A DNA stretch of 64,000 nucleotides from Ruegeria sp. HKCCA6707 (GTDB lineage Bacteria; Pseudomonadota; Alphaproteobacteria; Rhodobacterales; Rhodobacteraceae), in NCBI RefSeq assembly GCF_013033515.1, contig NZ_WQEG01000005.1:186001-250000 (forward strand). Direction: 5' to 3'. The stretch's first letter is position 1, and every line of letters starts with the position of its first letter. The position numbers were made by a program, and so were the translations under genes. Shown here piece by piece: positions 2,855 through 17,957 of this stretch. The notes beneath the pieces are model-generated. The model did not search any database and was not told the origin of the DNA. It worked only from the letters and a program-made list of their open reading frames with translations.

Positions 2855-3226
2855 TTAAAGGGCAATGCGCGCGATGGCGAAAAGGCCAGCGGCGGCGGCA
2901 CCGTAAGACAGGCAGGTCACCAGAATGATCAGGACCTTCTCCATCGTGCCGTGAACGTAGTCTTCGATCAGCACCTGCGCGCCTTCGGCAAAGTGCCTGA
3001 ACCCGACCAGCAGGGTCAGGGCCGCCACAATCGCCGGGAATGGCCGCGCGTAATAGTCCAGCACAACGTCAAAAGGCTGACCCAGGATCGGACCAAAGGT
3101 AAAGATGAACAGGGGCACGAGGATCAGCAGAGCAACCGAGCTGACTTTCATGCTCCAGAAATGAGCGGTGCCCGATTTGGCCGAACCCAGGCCAGTCGCG
3201 CGCTTGCGGTCTGTCAGATAACGCAT
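2855..3226 (-). CDS. sdhD: Succinate dehydrogenase membrane anchor subunit SdhD
   Basis: 123 residues from the ATG at 3226, which has a strong AAGGAGG ribosome site; an upstream in-frame extension is ignored. Three hydrophobic segments (about 29-48, 62-82 and 96-120) anchor complex II. The typical N-terminal GLGSAKSGTAHFW is present. The histidine in GFRHFAEGAQVLIEDY occupies the place of the haem b/quinone-site ligand of the family. It lies 11 bp after sdhC and 18 bp before sdhA. Confidence 0.93.
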   Translation of the reverse strand: MRYLTDRKRATGLGSAKSGTAHFWSMKVSSVALLILVPLFIFTFGPILGQPFDVVLDYYARPFPAIVAALTLLVGFRHFAEGAQVLIEDYVHGTMEKVLIILVTCLSYGAAAAGLFAIARIAL

Positions 3227-3237
3227 GAAAGCCTCCT

Positions 3238-3624
3238 TTACGCGACGATGAGCAGGGTCAGAAGGGTCAGCACAACCGACCCGATGATAACCGCCCAACC
3301 CAGCTTGTAGGCAGTGGGCAAATCCAACCCAAGGGCATTATCCCAGATCAGATGCCGGACGCCGGCAAGCGTATGATACCAGATACCCCACAGCGACAGC
3401 GTCATGATCAGATCACCCAGAACCGAAGTCAGCCACCAATTCGCGCGGGCAAACGCCTCGGGCGATGTCGCCGCCGCCAAGAGCCACCAAACGATCAGAA
3501 GGGCGGCCAACAGCATGGCGTTTCCTGTGATGCGGGTCAGAATGGATGTGACCGACGTCAGCTGCGGACGATAGATCGACAGATGCGGCGAAAGCGGGCG
3601 ATTGCCCCGATTTACATCGGCCAT
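3238..3624 (-). CDS. sdhC: Succinate dehydrogenase cytochrome b556 subunit SdhC
   Basis: 128 residues from the ATG at 3624, chosen because AAAAGGAG precedes it and because MADVNRGNRPLSPHLSIY is the usual family start. It carries the haem-binding motif H84-x6-H91-x3-D in WYHTLAGVRHLIWD and three membrane spans (about 30-55, 66-92 and 107-128). It is the first gene of the sdh operon. The paired GTGATCAC operator lies about 115-145 bp upstream. Confidence 0.95.
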   Translation of the reverse strand: MADVNRGNRPLSPHLSIYRPQLTSVTSILTRITGNAMLLAALLIVWWLLAAATSPEAFARANWWLTSVLGDLIMTLSLWGIWYHTLAGVRHLIWDNALGLDLPTAYKLGWAVIIGSVVLTLLTLLIVA

Positions 3625-3738
3625 GGCGGCTCCTTTTCGGTTGGCTACGGACGGTTTTACTGTTTTTTGCACCTCTGTCACGTGCTGCGCGTGCAAAAAC
3701 CGCCAAAATCAAGCCAATTTGACAGATTATTTCGTTTC

Positions 3739-3767
3739 GTGATCACACCAGATGACGTCGTGATCAC
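3739..3767. promoter_or_regulatory. Paired GTGATCAC palindromes upstream of sdhC
   Basis: Two copies of the 8-bp palindrome GTGATCAC (3739-3746 and 3760-3767), each followed by A, have centres exactly 21 bp apart, two helical turns. The same pair with the same spacing is upstream of sucC. A lone third copy sits at 3817-3824. This fits a dimer-of-dimers transcription factor site for the sdh promoter. The regulator is not identifiable from this window. Confidence 0.72.
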
Positions 3768-3816: not shown

Positions 3817-3824
3817 GTGATCAC
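3817..3824. promoter_or_regulatory. Third GTGATCAC copy distal to the sdhC operator pair
   Basis: A single GTGATCAC, with 5' T and 3' G, has its centre 57 bp from the nearer member of the pair. It lies between sdhC and the 3' end of the DUF1194 gene. It could be an auxiliary site for the same regulator. Isolated copies inside genes (1104-1111 and 62417-62424) show that one copy alone is weak evidence. Confidence 0.4.
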
Positions 3825-4547: not shown

Positions 4548-5576
4548 TCAGATTGGCATCAACGCCCAATAGTCCAGATCCAGCAGCACATCGGCTTTGT
4601 ACTTTCCATCCGGCCCGCGCAGTTCAAACGGTGCACCGCCTTTGGTGGCCACAAGACGCAGGCGCAGGGCCCCAACGCCGGGAACGCCAGTTTCTGCCTT
4701 ATCCAGAACCTCGGACCACGCCTTGATCGTATCCTCAGCAAAGCAGGGGTTGGCATGGGCACCACCGTTCAATCCGACGATCATCTGCGCATTGGCGAGC
4801 CCGTTGAACGACAAAGCCCGCGCCATCGAGATCACATGCCCGCCATAGATCAGCCGACCCTCGGGCCGGAATGTCAGGTCGAAATGCACCTTGGCCGTGT
4901 TCTGCCAAAGGCGTGTGGCCAACATATGCTCGGCCTCTTCCACGGTGACACCATCCACGTGATCGATGGTCTCGCCGACCTCATAGTCGCCCCAGCGATG
5001 GGGTTCGCCAGCCAGGGCGAAATCATAGTCCGAAAAATCCAACCCCTGCGGGATCACCAGATCATCGATGGAAAGCGCCTGTTTCAAATCCGGCACGACG
5101 GTATCTGGCGCCGGAGTATCCAGGTTCGACTTACGAACCATGACCCATCGGACATAGTCGAGCACAACCTCATCCCGCTGGTTCAGCCCTTTGGTCCGAA
5201 CCCAAACCACGCCCGTTTTTCCGTTCGAATTCTGCTTGACCCCGATCACCTCAGAAACCGAACGCAGCGTGTCACCCGGATAAACCGGCTTCAACCAACG
5301 CCCCTCGGCATAGCCAAGATTGGCAACCGCGTTCAATGAGACATCCGGTACCGTCTTGCCAAACACCACATGAAAGGCCGCCAGATCATCAACCGGGCTT
5401 TGTGGCAAACCACTGGCCTGCGCAAATGCGTCCGAGGAATAGAGCGCGTGACGCGCAGGATAGAGCGCATGGTACAAAGCGCGCTCTCCGGTGGTCACAG
5501 TACGCGGCACGGCGTGGTGCAACACTTGCCCCACCGCATAATCCTCGAAGAACCGGCCCGGGTTGGTTTTGGCCAT
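4548..5576 (-). CDS. mch: Mesaconyl-C1-CoA hydratase (MaoC-type double hotdog)
   Basis: 342 residues, the usual length. It hydrates mesaconyl-C1-CoA to beta-methylmalyl-CoA in the ethylmalonyl-CoA pathway. Two MaoC-like hotdog halves are seen: residues ~10-160 with a TGERALYHALYP element, and ~190-342 with FRPEGRLIYGGHVISMARA. Mcl2, the thioesterase of the same pathway, is three genes upstream in the same transcription unit, which supports the assignment over a generic MaoC dehydratase. The start overlaps the preceding DUF1737 stop (TAATG), indicating translational coupling. Confidence 0.9.
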   Translation of the reverse strand: MAKTNPGRFFEDYAVGQVLHHAVPRTVTTGERALYHALYPARHALYSSDAFAQASGLPQSPVDDLAAFHVVFGKTVPDVSLNAVANLGYAEGRWLKPVYPGDTLRSVSEVIGVKQNSNGKTGVVWVRTKGLNQRDEVVLDYVRWVMVRKSNLDTPAPDTVVPDLKQALSIDDLVIPQGLDFSDYDFALAGEPHRWGDYEVGETIDHVDGVTVEEAEHMLATRLWQNTAKVHFDLTFRPEGRLIYGGHVISMARALSFNGLANAQMIVGLNGGAHANPCFAEDTIKAWSEVLDKAETGVPGVGALRLRLVATKGGAPFELRGPDGKYKADVLLDLDYWALMPI

Positions 5577-9746: not shown

Positions 9747-9775
9747 GTGATCACACCCCAAAATGCTGTGATCAC
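9747..9775. promoter_or_regulatory. Paired GTGATCAC palindromes upstream of sucC
   Basis: GTGATCAC occurs at 9747-9754 and 9768-9775, centres 21 bp apart. Flanks extend the outer symmetry (TTTGTGATCACA and TGTGATCACAAA). The arrangement equals that upstream of sdhC, including ACC directly after the first copy. The pair lies 110-138 bp upstream of the sucC start. An AATCAAGCCAA 11-mer 28 bp before the pair (9719-9729) also recurs near the sdh pair (3707-3717). A shared operator is the simplest explanation. Confidence 0.75.
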
Positions 9776-9884
9776 AAATAGTGAAAATCTTCGTGAAAAA
9801 GCTCTTCAACGTCAAAAAAGCCTTTAACCTTGCCCGCTAGACACCCCTATAACAGGGGAATTACAGTCAGACGGGACAAATTCG

Positions 9885-11078
9885 ATGAACATTCACGAAT
9901 ATCAGGCCAAAGCGCTTCTTCGCAGCTATGGCGCTCCGGTCTCCGACGGTCGCGCCGTTCTGCGCGCCGAGGAAGCCAAAACCGCAGCCGGTGAGTTGGA
10001 TGGACCCTTGTGGGTTGTCAAAGCACAGATCCATGCGGGCGGACGCGGGAAAGGCTCATTCAAAGAGGCTGACGCAGGTGAAAAGGGCGGTGTCCGTCTG
10101 ACCAAATCGGTGGAAGAAGCCGCCGAAGAAGCCAAAAAGATGCTGGGCCGGACGCTGGTCACGCATCAGACCGGCCCGGCGGGCAAGCAGGTCAACCGCA
10201 TCTATATCGAAGCCGGTTCTGGCATCGAGCGCGAGCTTTATCTCGCCCTGCTGGTCGATCGTCAGACCAGCCGCATCTCGTTCGTCTGCTCGACCGAAGG
10301 CGGCATGGACATCGAAGAAGTGGCCGCAGAAACGCCCGAGAAAATCCTGTCCTTCTCGGTTGATCCAGCCACGGGGTATCAACCCTATCACGGCCGCCGC
10401 ATCGCCTTTTCGCTGGGTCTGCAGGGCGCGCAGATCAAGCAATGCGTCAAACTGATGAGCCAGCTTTATACAGCCTTTGTCGAAAAAGACATGGAGATGC
10501 TGGAGATCAACCCGCTGATCGTCTCGGACAGCGGTGACCTCAAGGTGCTGGATGCCAAGGTCGGCTTCGACGGCAACGCGGTCTACCGCCACCCTGACAT
10601 CGCCGAACTGCGCGACGAGACCGAAGAAGACCCCAAAGAGTTGGAAGCCTCGAAATACGACCTGAACTATATCGCTCTGGATGGTGAGATCGGGTGCATG
10701 GTCAACGGCGCCGGTCTGGCGATGGCGACGATGGACATCATCAAGCTTTACGGGGCCGAGCCTGCCAACTTCCTCGACGTCGGTGGTGGTGCGACCAAAG
10801 AGAAAGTAACCGAAGCGTTCAAGATCATCACCTCGGACGAAAACGTCAAAGGCATCCTGGTCAACATCTTCGGCGGCATCATGCGCTGTGACGTCATCGC
10901 CGAGGGCGTTGTCGCCGCCGTGAAAGAGGTCGGCCTGAAAGTGCCTCTGGTCGTGCGTCTGGAAGGCACGAATGTCGAGAAAGGCAAAGAGATCATCAAC
11001 ACCTCAGGCCTGGACGTGATCGCAGCGGACAACCTGAAAGACGGTGCTGAGAAGATCGTGAAGGCGGTTAAGGGTTGA
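9885..11078 (+). CDS. sucC: Succinyl-CoA synthetase (ADP-forming) beta subunit
   Basis: 397 residues, full length. It binds the nucleotide in the reversible conversion of succinyl-CoA to succinate with substrate-level phosphorylation. It opens with [19 protein letters not shown] (ATP-grasp). EINPLIV near residue 207 and [17 protein letters not shown] near 272 are family signatures. It is first gene of the suc cluster, downstream of the paired GTGATCAC operator. Its stop overlaps the next small gene (TGATG). Confidence 0.98.
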
Positions 11079-11378: not shown

Positions 11379-12260
11379 ATGGCAGTCCTCATCGACGAAA
11401 ATACCAAAGTGATCTGTCAGGGCTTTACCGGCTCGCAGGGCACATTCCACTCGGAACAGGCCATCGCCTATGGCACCAAGATGGTCGGCGGTGTGACCCC
11501 CGGCAAAGGCGGGATGACCCATCTTGACCTGCCCGTGTTCAACTCGGTTCACGAGGCCAAGCATGTGACCGAGGCCAATGCTTCGGTGATCTACGTGCCG
11601 CCACCCTTTGCCGCAGACTCGATCCTTGAAGCGATTGATGCCGAGATGGGGGTGATCGTAGCGATCACCGAAGGCATCCCGGTTCTGGATATGATGAAGG
11701 TGAAACGCGCGCTGGAAGGCAGCAATTCGCGCCTGATCGGGCCGAACTGCCCCGGTGTCATCACCCCGGATGCCTGCAAGATCGGCATCATGCCCGGCCA
11801 CATCCACAAACGCGGCTCGGTCGGTGTTGTGTCGCGTTCGGGCACGCTGACCTATGAGGCCGTCAAACAGACCACCGATGTGGGTCTGGGCCAGTCCACC
11901 TGTGTCGGCATTGGCGGCGACCCGATCAAAGGCACCGAGCATATCGACGTGCTGGAATGGTTCCTGGCCGATGACGAAACCCACTCGATCATCATGATCG
12001 GTGAGATCGGTGGTTCCGCCGAGGAAGAAGCCGCGCAGTTCCTGGCCGATGAGGCCAAGAAGGGCCGCAAAAAGCCGGTCGCTGGTTTCATCGCTGGCCG
12101 CACCGCCCCTCCGGGCCGCCGCATGGGCCACGCGGGCGCGATTGTCGCTGGTGGCAAAGGCGGAGCCGAGGACAAGATCGAAGCCATGCGCTCGGCCGGT
12201 ATCGTCGTGGCGGAAAGCCCCGCGACGCTGGGTGAGGCTGTGTTGGAAGCGATTGGGTAA
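11379..12260 (+). CDS. sucD: Succinyl-CoA synthetase alpha subunit
   Basis: 293 residues from the ATG at 11379, chosen for its AAGGAG site and because [18 protein letters not shown] is the family start. It binds CoA and carries the phosphorylated active-site His in GHAGAIV near residue 249. [13 protein letters not shown] near 118 is the second signature. It forms the heterodimer/tetramer with SucC. It is separated from sucC only by a small lipoprotein gene. Confidence 0.98.
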
Positions 12261-12950: not shown

Positions 12951-13489
12951 CCTTCTCAGACGCCATCCGCACCTGTTTCTCCAAGTTCTTCACCTTCTCG
13001 GGTCGTGCCGCGCGGCCCGAATACTGGTTCTTTTTCCTGTTCATCGTGATCTGGAACATCATCGCCGGGATCATCGACTGGCAGTTTTTCACGCAGGTTT
13101 CGACCTCGCAAACCGACAGCAGCACAAGCGTTACGGCCACGTCCAGCCAACCGGTGCAATCCATCGTTGGCCTGATCGTCTTTTTCCCGCATCTGGCCGT
13201 CGCGTGGCGGCGGATGCATGATACAGGGCGCAGCGGGCTTTTTGCCCTTCTGCCGATCCTGTTGATCCTCGGGGCCTTTGCAGTCTTGATTTTCGGCATC
13301 GGCCTTGCCTCAAGTTTCCAGCACGGCGGCAGCCTGGACATCCTGTTCACCCGCGCCACGTTGCTGATCGTCATTCCGACACTGATCGTCCTGTTTGTGT
13401 CGCCCCTTCTGGTTCTGTGGTGGCTGACCCGCCCCAGTCAGCCAGGCCCCAATAAATACGGTCCCAACCCATATGAGGTACTCCCATGA
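12947..13489 (+). CDS. DUF805 integral membrane protein
   Basis: 180 residues. The DUF805 hallmark FSGRAARPEYWFFFLF is at ~18-33, VAWRRMHDTGRSGLFALLP is near 87, and RPSQPGPNKYGPNP is at the C-terminus. Four membrane spans are visible. Function is unknown. It overlaps both neighbours by four bases (ATGA), so translation is likely coupled to sucA. Confidence 0.88.
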   Translation: MTFSDAIRTCFSKFFTFSGRAARPEYWFFFLFIVIWNIIAGIIDWQFFTQVSTSQTDSSTSVTATSSQPVQSIVGLIVFFPHLAVAWRRMHDTGRSGLFALLPILLILGAFAVLIFGIGLASSFQHGGSLDILFTRATLLIVIPTLIVLFVSPLLVLWWLTRPSQPGPNKYGPNPYEVLP

Positions 13490-16443
13490 CCGAACATACG
13501 CCCAACACTGCCTTTCATGCCTCTAGCTTCATGCAAGGCCACAATGCCGAATATCTGGAGCAGCTTTACGCCCAGTACACCAAGAACCCGGGCGCGGTAG
13601 ATGCGGCCTGGGCCGAATTCTTCAAGGCGATGGGCGATGCCACACCGGATGTGCAGCGCGAGGCTGAAGGCCCGTCCTGGGCGCGGACCGACTGGCCGCC
13701 AATGCCCGCCGATGACCTGACGGGCGCGCTGACCGGGGAATGGGCCGAGATCGACGCCAAGGCAGCGGGCAAAAAGATCAAGGACAAAGCCGCGGACAAG
13801 GGTGTTGAGGTCAGCGACGATCAGATCAAACGCGCGGTTCTGGACAGTCTGCGCGCGCTGATGCTGATCCGGGCCTATCGGATCCGGGGCCATCTGGCCG
13901 CCGATTTGGACCCGTTGGGGATGCGTGCGGCCAGCACTCACCCCGAGCTGGATCCGAAAACCTATGGGTTCACCGAAGCGGATATGGATCGTCCGATCTT
14001 TATCGACAACGTTTTGGGCCTTCAGGTCGCCTCGATGCGGCAGATCGTCGAGATCGTAAAGCGGACCTATTGCGGCACTTTCGCGCTTCAATACATGCAT
14101 ATCTCGAACCCCGAAGAGGCCGCCTGGCTGAAAGAGCGGATCGAGGGCTATGGCAAGGAAATCGCCTTCACCAAGGAAGGCCGCAAGGCAATCCTGAACA
14201 AGATGGTCGAGGCTGAGGGATTCGAGAAGTTCCTGCATGTCAAATACATGGGCACCAAGCGGTTCGGTCTCGATGGCGGTGAAGCGCTGATCCCGGCGAT
14301 GGAGCAGATCATCAAGCGTGGCGGTGCGCTGGGGCTGAGCGACATCGTAATCGGGATGCCGCACCGGGGGCGTCTGAATATACTGGCTAACGTGATGGGC
14401 AAGCCATACCGCGCGATTTTCAACGAGTTTCAGGGTGGCAGCTTCAAACCCGAAGACGTCGATGGCTCGGGCGATGTGAAGTATCACCTGGGCGCGTCCA
14501 GCGACCGCGAGTTTGATGGCAACAGTGTCCACCTGTCGCTGACCGCCAACCCCTCGCACCTTGAGGCGGTGAACCCGGTGGTGCTGGGTAAGGTCCGTGC
14601 CAAGCAGGATCAGTTGAACGACACCGACCGCACACGGGCGATGGGCATCCTGCTGCACGGCGATGCGGCCTTTGCGGGTCAGGGCGTGGTCGCCGAAGGC
14701 TTTGGCCTGTCGGGACTGCGCGGGCACAAGACTGGCGGCACGATGCATATCGTGGTGAACAACCAGATCGGCTTTACCACTGCACCGCACTTCTCACGCT
14801 CCAGCCCGTACCCGACGGATATCGCGCTGATGGTCGAGGCGCCGATCTTCCACGTCAATGGTGATGACCCCGAGGCTGTGGTTCATGCGGCCAAAGTCGC
14901 AACTGAGTTCCGTCAGAAGTTCCACAAGGACGTGGTGATCGACATCTTCTGCTATCGCCGCTTTGGTCACAACGAGGGCGACGAGCCCATGTTCACCAAC
15001 CCAGTCATGTACAAGCGGATCAAGACGCATAAGACCACGCTGTCCTTGTATACCGAACGTCTGGTCAAGGACGGCCTGATCCCCGAAGGTGAGATCGAGG
15101 ATATGAAAGCCGCGTTCCAGGCGCATCTGAATGATGAGTTTGAGGCAGGCAAAGACTATAAGCCGAACAAGGCCGATTGGCTCGATGGCCGCTGGTCACA
15201 TCTGGACAAGAACAAGGACGAATACGTCCGCGGTGAAACCGCAATCTCGCCCGAGACGCTGGCCGAAGTCGGCAACGCTCTGACCCGCGCGCCTGACGGC
15301 TTTGCGCTGCACAAGACCGTTGGCCGCCTGCTTGAGCACAAAAAGAAGATGTTCGAAACCGGTACGGGTTTTGACTGGGCCACCGGCGAAGCGCTGGCCT
15401 TTGGCTCGCTACTGACCGAAGGCTATCCGGTCCGTCTGTCGGGGCAAGACGCCACGCGCGGGACGTTCAGCCAGCGTCATTCAGGTTTTGTGCATCAGGA
15501 AACCGAAGAGCGGTATTATCCGCTGAACAATATCCGCGCCGGGCAATCGCACTACGAAGTGATCGACTCGATGCTCAGCGAATATGCCGTTCTGGGCTTT
15601 GAGTATGGTTACTCACTGGCCGAACCCAACGCCCTGACCCTGTGGGAAGCGCAGTTTGGTGACTTTGCCAACGGCGCGCAGATCATGTTCGATCAGTTCA
15701 TCAGCTCGGGCGAAAGCAAATGGCTGCGGATGTCCGGTCTGGTCACGCTGCTGCCACACGGGTTCGAAGGCCAGGGCCCCGAACACTCATCTGCGCGGCT
15801 GGAGCGGTTCCTGCAGATGTGCGGTCAGGACAACTGGATCGTGGCGAACTGTACGACGCCTGCGAACTATTTCCACATCCTGCGCCGTCAGTTGCACCGC
15901 ACCTTCCGTAAGCCGCTGATCATGGTCACGCCGAAATCGCTGCTGCGCCATAAGCTCGCGGTCAGCACAGCTGATCAGTTCACCACCGGGTCCAGCTTCC
16001 ACCGGGTGTTGTGGGATGACGCTCAGCACGGCAACTCTGACACCAAACTGGTGGCCGACGACAAGATCAAACGGGTCGTTCTGTGCTCGGGCAAGGTTTA
16101 CTACGACCTGCTCGAGGAACGCGACGCGCGCGGTATTGATGACGTCTATCTGCTGCGGATCGAGCAATATTATCCCTTCCCGGCCCATTCCCTGATCAAC
16201 GAGCTTGAGCGGTTCAAAGGGGCCGAAATGGTCTGGTGTCAGGAAGAGCCCAAGAACCAGGGCGCCTGGACCTTTATCGAGCCCAATATCGAATGGGTCC
16301 TGACCCGTATCGGGGCCAAGCACACTCGCCCGGTCTATGCCGGACGCGCAACCTCGGCCTCGCCCGCGACGGGTCTGGCCAGCCAACACAAAGCCCAACA
16401 AGAAGCGCTGGTGAACGAAGCGCTGAGCATTGAAGGAAAGTAA
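13486..16443 (+). CDS. sucA: 2-Oxoglutarate dehydrogenase E1 component
   Basis: 985 residues, full length. It is the thiamine-diphosphate-dependent decarboxylase of the 2-oxoglutarate dehydrogenase complex. Seen are the E2-binding N-terminus ([20 protein letters not shown]), [18 protein letters not shown] near 290, [20 protein letters not shown] near 350, [13 protein letters not shown] near 390 and [10 protein letters not shown] near 425 (diphosphate/Mg2+ site). It is followed directly by sucB (TAATG overlap) and, further on, lpdA. Confidence 0.98.
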
Positions 16444-17957
16444 TGATGTCCATTGAAGTTCGTGTTCCCACGTTGGGCGAGTCGGTCACCGAGGCGACGG
16501 TTGCAACCTGGTTCAAGAAGCCCGGCGATGCGGTCGCCGTGGATGAAATGCTGTGCGAGCTGGAAACCGACAAGGTAACGGTCGAGGTCCCCTCACCCGC
16601 CGCTGGCGTGATGGGCGAAATCGTCGCTGCCGAAGGCGAAACCGTTGGTGTGGATGCACTGCTGGCGACAATTGCCGCCGGTGAAGGTGCAGCACCCGCG
16701 CCCGCCGCCCCAGCTGCTGAAGCCCCCGCAGCGGCTCCTGCTGCTTCAGGCGGTTCGGTCGATGTGATGGTGCCCACTCTGGGTGAATCTGTGACCGAAG
16801 CGACCGTTTCGACGTGGTTCAAACAGGTCGGCGACAGTGTCGCGCAGGATGAGATGCTTTGCGAGCTGGAAACCGACAAGGTCTCGGTCGAGGTTCCGGC
16901 CCCCGCCGCGGGCGTTCTGGCCGAAATCACGGCCCCCGAGGGCACGACCGTGGACGCCAGCGCCAAGCTGGCGGTGATCTCTGGCTCGGCAACCGGGGCA
17001 ACCCCTGCACCTGCGGCAGCCGCCGCAGCACCGGCTGCGGCAAGCACCGGCAAAGACGTAGCCAACGCTCCGTCCGCTGAAAAAGCCATGGCCGAGGCCG
17101 GGCTGTCAGCCGATCAGGTCACCGGCACCGGGCGCGATGGCCGCATCATGAAAGAAGATGTGGCCAAAGCCGTCGCCGCAGCAGCTGCCCCAGCACCTGC
17201 AGCAACCCCTGCCCCTGCGGCCCAGGCGCCACGTGCGCCAGTTGTCGCCGAAGATGCCTCGCGCGAGGAACGGGTCCGCATGACCCGTCTGCGCCAGACC
17301 ATCGCCAAGCGCCTGAAAGACGCGCAGAACACTGCCGCGATCCTGACCACCTACAATGAGGTGGACATGACCGAGGTAATGGCGCTGCGCAACCAGTACA
17401 AAGACCAGTTCGAAAAGAAACACGGTGTGCGTCTGGGCTTTATGTCCTTCTTTACCAAGGCCTGCTGTCACGCGCTGAAAGAAGTGCCCGAAGTGAATGC
17501 CGAGATCGATGGCAACGACATCGTCTACAAGAACTTCGTGCATATGGGCGTGGCCGCCGGTACGCCACAAGGGCTGGTGGTTCCGGTGATCCGTGATGCA
17601 GATAGCATGTCCTTTGCTGCAATCGAAAAGGCCATCGCCGAAAAAGGCAAACGCGCGCGCGACGGCAAGCTGTCGATGGCCGAGATGCAGGGCGGTACCT
17701 TCACCATCTCGAACGGGGGTGTCTATGGCTCGCTGATGTCCTCGCCGATCCTGAACCCGCCGCAATCGGGTATTCTGGGGATGCACAAGATCCAGGACCG
17801 TCCGATGGTTATCAACGGAGAGATCAAGATCCGCCCAATGATGTATCTGGCTCTGTCCTACGACCACCGGATCGTCGACGGCAAAGGCGCGGTCACCTTC
17901 CTTGTGCGCGTCAAAGAAGCGCTCGAAGATCCACGCCGCCTGCTGATGGACCTGTGA
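16443..17957 (+). CDS. sucB: Dihydrolipoyllysine succinyltransferase E2 with two lipoyl domains
   Basis: 504 residues. Two tandem lipoyl domains (about 3-78 and 103-178) each carry the lipoylated Lys in ELETDKV. Ala/Pro linkers follow, then the peripheral-subunit-binding domain (~208-243, [15 protein letters not shown]), then the catalytic domain with the active-site His in [13 protein letters not shown] near 475. E. coli SucB has one lipoyl domain; two are seen in this bacterial group. The start at 16443 or the adjacent ATG at 16446 cannot be separated. Confidence 0.97.

Follow-up and report, generated by a model that had tools for sequence, protein, structure and literature searches.

Results

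Two palindrome pairs lie upstream of sdhC and sucC

The window, by which we mean the whole 64,000-nucleotide stretch of the Ruegeria sp. HKCCA6707 genome that was analyzed, carries genes from two TCA operons. On the minus strand lie sdhC (3238..3624), which served as the tblastn query against relatives, sdhD (2855-3226), which is 3' of sdhC, and sdhA (1031-2836). All three are open reading frames that were named from sequence. On the plus strand lie sucC (9885..11078), sucD (11379-12260), and sucA (13486-16443), which are open reading frames that were also used as tblastn queries, and a putative sucB (16443-17957), which was named by position alone. The palindrome GTGATCAC occurs seven times in the window as compared to 1.14 expected copies, and none of 100 dinucleotide shuffles reached seven. 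Only two exact GTGATCAC-N13-GTGATCAC pairs are present, one at 3739-3767 (sdhC) and one at 9747-9775 (sucC).

The sdhC pair is flanked by the start of sdhC (3624, minus strand) on one side and by the stop of the neighboring DUF1194 gene (3840) on the other. It consists of a promoter-proximal palindrome, a candidate AkgR-type site (3739..3746), and a promoter-distal palindrome (3760..3767), with a start-to-start spacing of 21 bp. The sucC pair, situated between the end of mdh (9566) and the start of sucC (9885), has the same arrangement, with the promoter-distal palindrome at 9747..9754 and the promoter-proximal palindrome at 9768..9775. These coordinates confirm the earlier note, which had described two identical 8-bp palindromes 21 bp apart before each operon. 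A third exact GTGATCAC (3817..3824) is found in the same intergenic stretch, 57 bp farther upstream and offset in phase from the sdhC pair by approximately half a turn. Similar third-site spacings are found in some close relatives, being 57 bp in loci of the same genus (L410, L412, and L424) and 56-57 bp in relatives from other genera (L330, L384, and L395). The remaining copies, at 1104 and 62417, are both within open reading frames. Across the 4.54-Mb draft genome, which is 99.24% complete, GTGATCAC-N13-GTGATCAC has no exact occurrence beyond the sdhC and sucC pairs, and the single one-mismatch pair (C27:165697) is inside an open reading frame that was judged by eye to be transaldolase-like. 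A control search of the genome used the reversed pattern; this pattern includes CTAG, a rare tetramer in bacterial DNA, and the control was given no weight. As a separate observation, a mesaconyl-CoA hydratase-like MaoC gene (4548-5576) is close to sdh, and MaoC-like frames were also seen by eye near sdhC in loci L176 and L474.

The pair is conserved across the family at a near-fixed spacing

The family survey covered 198 genomes, nearly all from different genera, and counted as a pair any exact N2-N32 pair of GTGATCAC anywhere in the genome. By this definition, 176 of the 198 genomes have a pair, and because neither spacing nor place was restricted, a few of these positives may be due to chance (G061 is one such genome). 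We then enumerated every N12/N13 pair in 76 of these 176 genomes, of which 75 have at least one and G061 has none. The 134 pairs recovered from the 75 genomes are located before sucC (74) or before sdhC (60), and none is found elsewhere. The spacing is 21 bp in 121 pairs and 20 bp in 13, and is thus near-fixed at about two helical turns. In the open N2-N32 search, other spacings at sdhC and sucC come only from additional third or fourth sites. The sequence flanking the palindromes is less conserved than the palindromes themselves.

Two further sets of family genomes were examined. From 36 further genomes, duplicates were removed by sequence context and most listed pairs were fetched; the omitted pairs (e.g., in G044, G047, and G127) have other spacings. 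Among the matches listed for this set, the 20/21-bp pairs are before sucC (35), sdhC (31), and sucA (1), and the pairs at other spacings consist of one 13-bp pair before akgR and three pairs, spaced 18, 27, and 31 bp, that are not near any of these genes. From 28 genomes chosen for extra or unusual pairs, all 14 loci with a 20/21-bp pair, a few of which are already counted within the 134, have it before sucC or sdhC, and none of the 13 examined pairs at other spacings is before either gene. The earlier note had named a lack of conservation in relatives, and frequent pairs at intragenic positions, as grounds for doubting the element. The pair is instead kept before sdhC or sucC in most of the sampled family genomes, and the placed 20/21-bp pairs of the family are before sucC, sdhC, and, once, sucA. 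Its view that both TCA operons carry a regulatory element is borne out, and this element is conserved.

Several variations on the arrangement were observed. In one genus the pair is before sucA instead of sucC (G177, L164 1933-1961). Three palindromes at 21+21 bp are found before sucC in Pseudotabrizicola sediminis (L217, 19903) and in a metagenome genome of Gemmobacter nectariphilus (L224, 20188). G135 also has three at 21+21 bp among the matches listed. In L224 and in L239 (20165), one more palindrome before sucC follows 26 bp on. In addition, 15-bp-spaced pairs with a nearly identical spacer are found in two genera (L456 1501-1523 in G125 and L460 1501-1523 in G107). Neither locus has a match to sdhC, sucC, sucA, mdh, or akgR, and these pairs possibly represent a further target of a GTGATCAC-binding regulator. 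A 24-bp-spaced pair (G069, L476 1260-1291) is in a locus with an akgR-like match that is not the best one of that genome.

A survey of 289 genomes from the class found two pairs in each of the four genomes that belong to the same family. Outside the family, a pair of any kind is present in 18 of 285 genomes, mostly at other spacings, and a 21-bp pair is present in two loci, L130 and L132. In L130, from another family of the class, the 21-bp pair (992-1020) precedes a gene of the GntR type that is only distantly related (28.6% identity), so the arrangement may be older or may have arisen twice. None of the tested genes adjoins the pair in L132.

The sdhC pair is in helical phase with the predicted sdhC promoter

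A promoter matrix was learned from sequence alone using 94 sdhC upstream regions. The matrix finds a GTGACA-N16/17-TANNAN promoter before sdhC, which scores at least 10 in 84 of the 94 regions. In the window, the inferred -35 element (GTGACA, 3676..3681, minus strand) and -10 element (TAAAAC, 3654..3659, minus strand) are separated by a 16-bp spacer. In 74 of the 84 regions, the distance from the start of the -35 element to the center of the nearer palindrome is 61-64 bp. The other ten distances (40, 51, 52, 52, 53, 72, 72, 73, 75, and 82 bp) keep the phase of the main cluster for a period of 10.5 bp, which was the best of the periods tried (6 to 16). As compared to uniform placement, the phasing at sdhC has a p value of 9e-5, uncorrected for kinship.

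At sucC, the inferred -35 element (9823..9828, plus strand) is weak and its register is uncertain by 1-2 bp, and the promoter search places the -10 element (TATAAC) at 9848..9853 on the plus strand. The sucC -35 element is also weaker than that of sdhC across the relatives, and is 50-52 bp from the pair in 67 of 119 cases, which is about one turn nearer than at sdhC. Helical phasing at sucC is weak (p = 0.03) because the sucC -35 element is hard to place. Natural sequence variation itself suggests that an activator has to be positioned on a single face of the helix.

AkgR is the probable regulator

AkgR of Rhodobacter sphaeroides, which was reportedly described by Imam et al. in mBio in 2015, is a protein that we take to be RSP_0981. 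In the available text of one study, GTGATCAC is given among the binding sites of R. sphaeroides AkgR, which is termed a transcriptional activator (PMC6365646). In the accessible part of another, the GntR protein RSP_0981 is a predicted regulator of succinyl-CoA synthetase (sucCD), sdh, and 2-oxoglutarate dehydrogenase (PMC4344238). The same source also predicts sdh as a target of CceR (RSP_1663) and of NtrC, so AkgR would share control of sdh with other regulators; the motif given for CceR, GTT-N6-8-AAC, differs from the GTGATCAC palindrome (PMC4344238). The window carries what would be expected of an AkgR regulon, with the motif at the target promoters, one pair before sdhC, and one before sucC, which is followed by sucD and sucA.

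Of 22 loci in the source genome that encode an FCD protein (the match and up to 1.5 kb per side), GTGATCAC is found only at P0001, just before the start codon. P0001 is an AkgR orthologue that scores above the cut-offs for both PF00392 (GntR) and PF07729 (FCD), and is 76% identical to its counterpart in G051, a genome that is presumably R. sphaeroides. The nearest named match to the G051 AkgR protein is from Cereibacter ovatus (95%), and in G051 the genes sucC, sdhC, and akgR are found in that order within about 11 kb. In many genomes, including the source genome, AkgR has two matches at E<=1e-30, and in the source genome the second of these is weaker. Taken from sequence, these findings indicate that the regulator using the pairs is probably AkgR, a GntR/FCD protein. 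The earlier note was probably correct that a single regulator coordinates both TCA operons; its reading was incomplete in that the regulator it could not match is very probably a known one, as the motif and the targets match AkgR/RSP_0981.

We next compared the distribution of AkgR with that of the pair. A strong AkgR match (E<1e-50) is present in 177 of the 198 family genomes, and 173 of the 177 have an exact N2-N32 pair. AkgR is absent or weak in 21 genomes, of which three (G019, G096, and G114) have the pair, before sucC. The presence of AkgR and of the pair is therefore concordant in 191 of 198 genomes. Among the four AkgR-positive genomes without a pair, G122 and G155 lack a match to sucC and G147 has only a 52% homologue; in G040, sdhC and sucC each have a one-mismatch pair. 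G061, one of the 173, has AkgR and pairs spaced 22 and 13 bp, neither of which is before sucC or sdhC, and the 22-bp pair (L475 1220-1249) is directly after a long open reading frame.

Eighteen genomes have neither a strong AkgR match nor the pair. A close sucC is present in 16 of these, none of which has the pair before it, and the best stretches contain 3-7 mismatches (three in G017, four in G157, where the stretch is at the usual position, and 6-7 in the others). Of the other two genomes, G021 has only a distant sucC homologue and G172 has none. sdhC was located in 14 of the 18, and in none of the 14 is it preceded by the pair (5-7 mismatches). On a SucC tree of 54 rows, ten changes are needed for AkgR and eight for the pair. 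A strict co-loss test on this tree had four well-supported independent contrasts, with changes the same way in 2.3 on average and the opposite way in 0, which in this under-powered test is not significant.

A single palindrome is found at the akgR promoter

An exact palindrome is upstream of akgR in all 30 loci that are most like the Ruegeria gene, and is no more than 35 bp from the start in 29 of them. In 26 of the 28 loci where the pattern found both elements, the site is 18 bp from the start of the -35 element (TTGAC), which puts it over the -10 element. The site is absent in five of eight further relatives, G051 among them, and only 14 of 79 named loci have it, so autoregulation would not be general. 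Two palindromes merely 13 bp apart were seen before akgR in G187 (L163 1450-1470).

A scan of the genus with the longer pattern TTTGTGATCACA listed 43 places in 13 genomes, some of which are one site counted on both strands, and 30 places were made into loci and examined. Fourteen are before sucC, ten before akgR, four before sdhC, and two elsewhere, the latter both in the source genome and within open reading frames. No further target genes were found among the 30 of 43 places.

Discussion

Our preferred reading, which we regard as likely, is that each pair is a tandem operator from which AkgR would activate sdh and suc. This assignment is based on the presence of an AkgR orthologue in the genome, the near-fixed spacing at sdhC and sucC, and the single site over the akgR promoter. 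Each GTGATCAC would accept one AkgR dimer, and with the two-turn spacing of 20-21 bp a pair of dimers would be neighbors on the same DNA face. Because the spacing is near-fixed, cooperative binding by the two dimers is plausible. From positions of about -95/-116 at sdhC and -88/-109 at sucC, computed from the inferred -10 boxes, the paired dimers could assist transcription initiation by RNA polymerase. At akgR, a single dimer would cover the -10 region and limit the synthesis of AkgR itself. Together this would form a single feedback-limited switch by which succinate dehydrogenase and the sucCDAB enzymes are set jointly. We are less sure of cooperativity and of akgR autorepression than of the tandem operator itself.

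A chance origin of the pairs, or a repeat without a regulatory role, was considered and rejected. Irregularly spaced pairs do arise by chance, several of them within reading frames, and GTGATCAC contains GATC. Against this, the shuffles, the uniqueness of the pairs in the source genome, their rarity outside the family, and the placement of 134 of 134 N12/N13 pairs before two genes in 75 genomes leave chance with a negligible probability, and the lower conservation of the flanks argues the same way. The earlier note's judgment that the arrangement is hard to ascribe to chance is upheld by the excess of copies in the window and by this placement. A regulator other than AkgR is a more serious candidate, since a different GntR paralogue that shares the half-site might use the pair, either by itself or competing with AkgR. 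The second AkgR match of many genomes, the 21-bp pair upstream of the distant GntR gene in L130, the pairs kept in G019, G096, and G114 without a strong AkgR match, and a Pseudomonas GntR protein that is proposed to use GTGATCAC (in the available text of PMC6365646) would all be consistent with this idea. However, the concordance of pair and AkgR across the family, together with the restriction of the palindrome to akgR among the 22 FCD loci, makes it improbable.

The sign of regulation is the point on which an alternative carries somewhat more weight, although it too is unlikely. AkgR could bind the pair as a repressor, in which case sdh and suc would stay low until a ligand releases AkgR. 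Many GntR proteins, including those of the GntR/FCD type, are repressors, and at akgR the palindrome lies across the gene's own -10 element, which is a repressor position. The pairs, however, are about 50-63 bp upstream of the inferred -35 elements of sdhC and sucC, an activator-type position, the helical phase is kept at sdhC, and AkgR is called an activator in the portion of PMC6365646 at hand. With AkgR as the activator of sdh and suc, a broader proposal can be made, which we hold tentatively and rate at somewhat short of an even chance. AkgR may read the number and place of its operators as the sign of regulation, such that tandem sites spaced by two helical turns and placed whole turns upstream of the promoter activate sdh and suc and the single site at the akgR -10 element represses. 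The family would then keep a closed circuit of mainly three promoters and lose it along with akgR, and the pair would slide relative to the sdhC promoter by whole turns only.

The motif, the regulator, and the target operons are already in print as known or predicted. What is possibly new is the tandem operator, with its near-fixed spacing and its helical phase relative to the sdhC promoter, and the single site over the akgR -10 element. In the accessible portions of the literature on AkgR, RSP_0981, tandem GntR operators, and Rhodobacteraceae GntR/sdh regulation, in which the 2015 mBio study of AkgR is represented by PMC4344238 and by papers that cite it, neither the spaced pair nor the promoter phase nor the akgR self-site is described. 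The proposal turns an unexplained spacing into a defined circuit that can be tested and that would regulate the oxidative TCA cycle of the Rhodobacteraceae, a large and common family, and the 28/29-letter signature would predict AkgR control from raw sequence.

The closest known system is that of R. sphaeroides AkgR, which shares the GTGATCAC motif and for which sdh, sucCD, and 2-oxoglutarate dehydrogenase are predicted RSP_0981 targets in the available text of two sources (PMC6365646, PMC4344238). The 76%-identical protein in G051 is encoded near sdh; the two genomes differ in that the source genome has a palindrome over the akgR promoter and G051 does not. PS417_07240 of Pseudomonas simiae, a regulator of deoxyribonate oxidation, is also GntR-like and is proposed to control its own cluster through the same palindrome. 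In contrast to the pairs described here, one conserved palindrome is described for that system, which serves a different pathway, and it spans -47 to -40 relative to the start codon (from the accessible part of PMC6365646). PS417_07240 is 32% identical to AkgR. A third comparison is Escherichia coli NanR, for which the consulted portion of PMC8012715 describes GntR-type dimers that bind adjacent repeats cooperatively and less strongly with longer spacers. NanR differs in being a repressor that acts on three GGTATA repeats, and its cooperativity operates via a 32-residue N-terminal extension (PMC8012715), whereas in the AkgR orthologue the GntR domain match starts at residue 15. By analogy, and although it acts as a repressor, NanR may be taken as a precedent for cooperative GntR dimers on repeated sites (PMC8012715).
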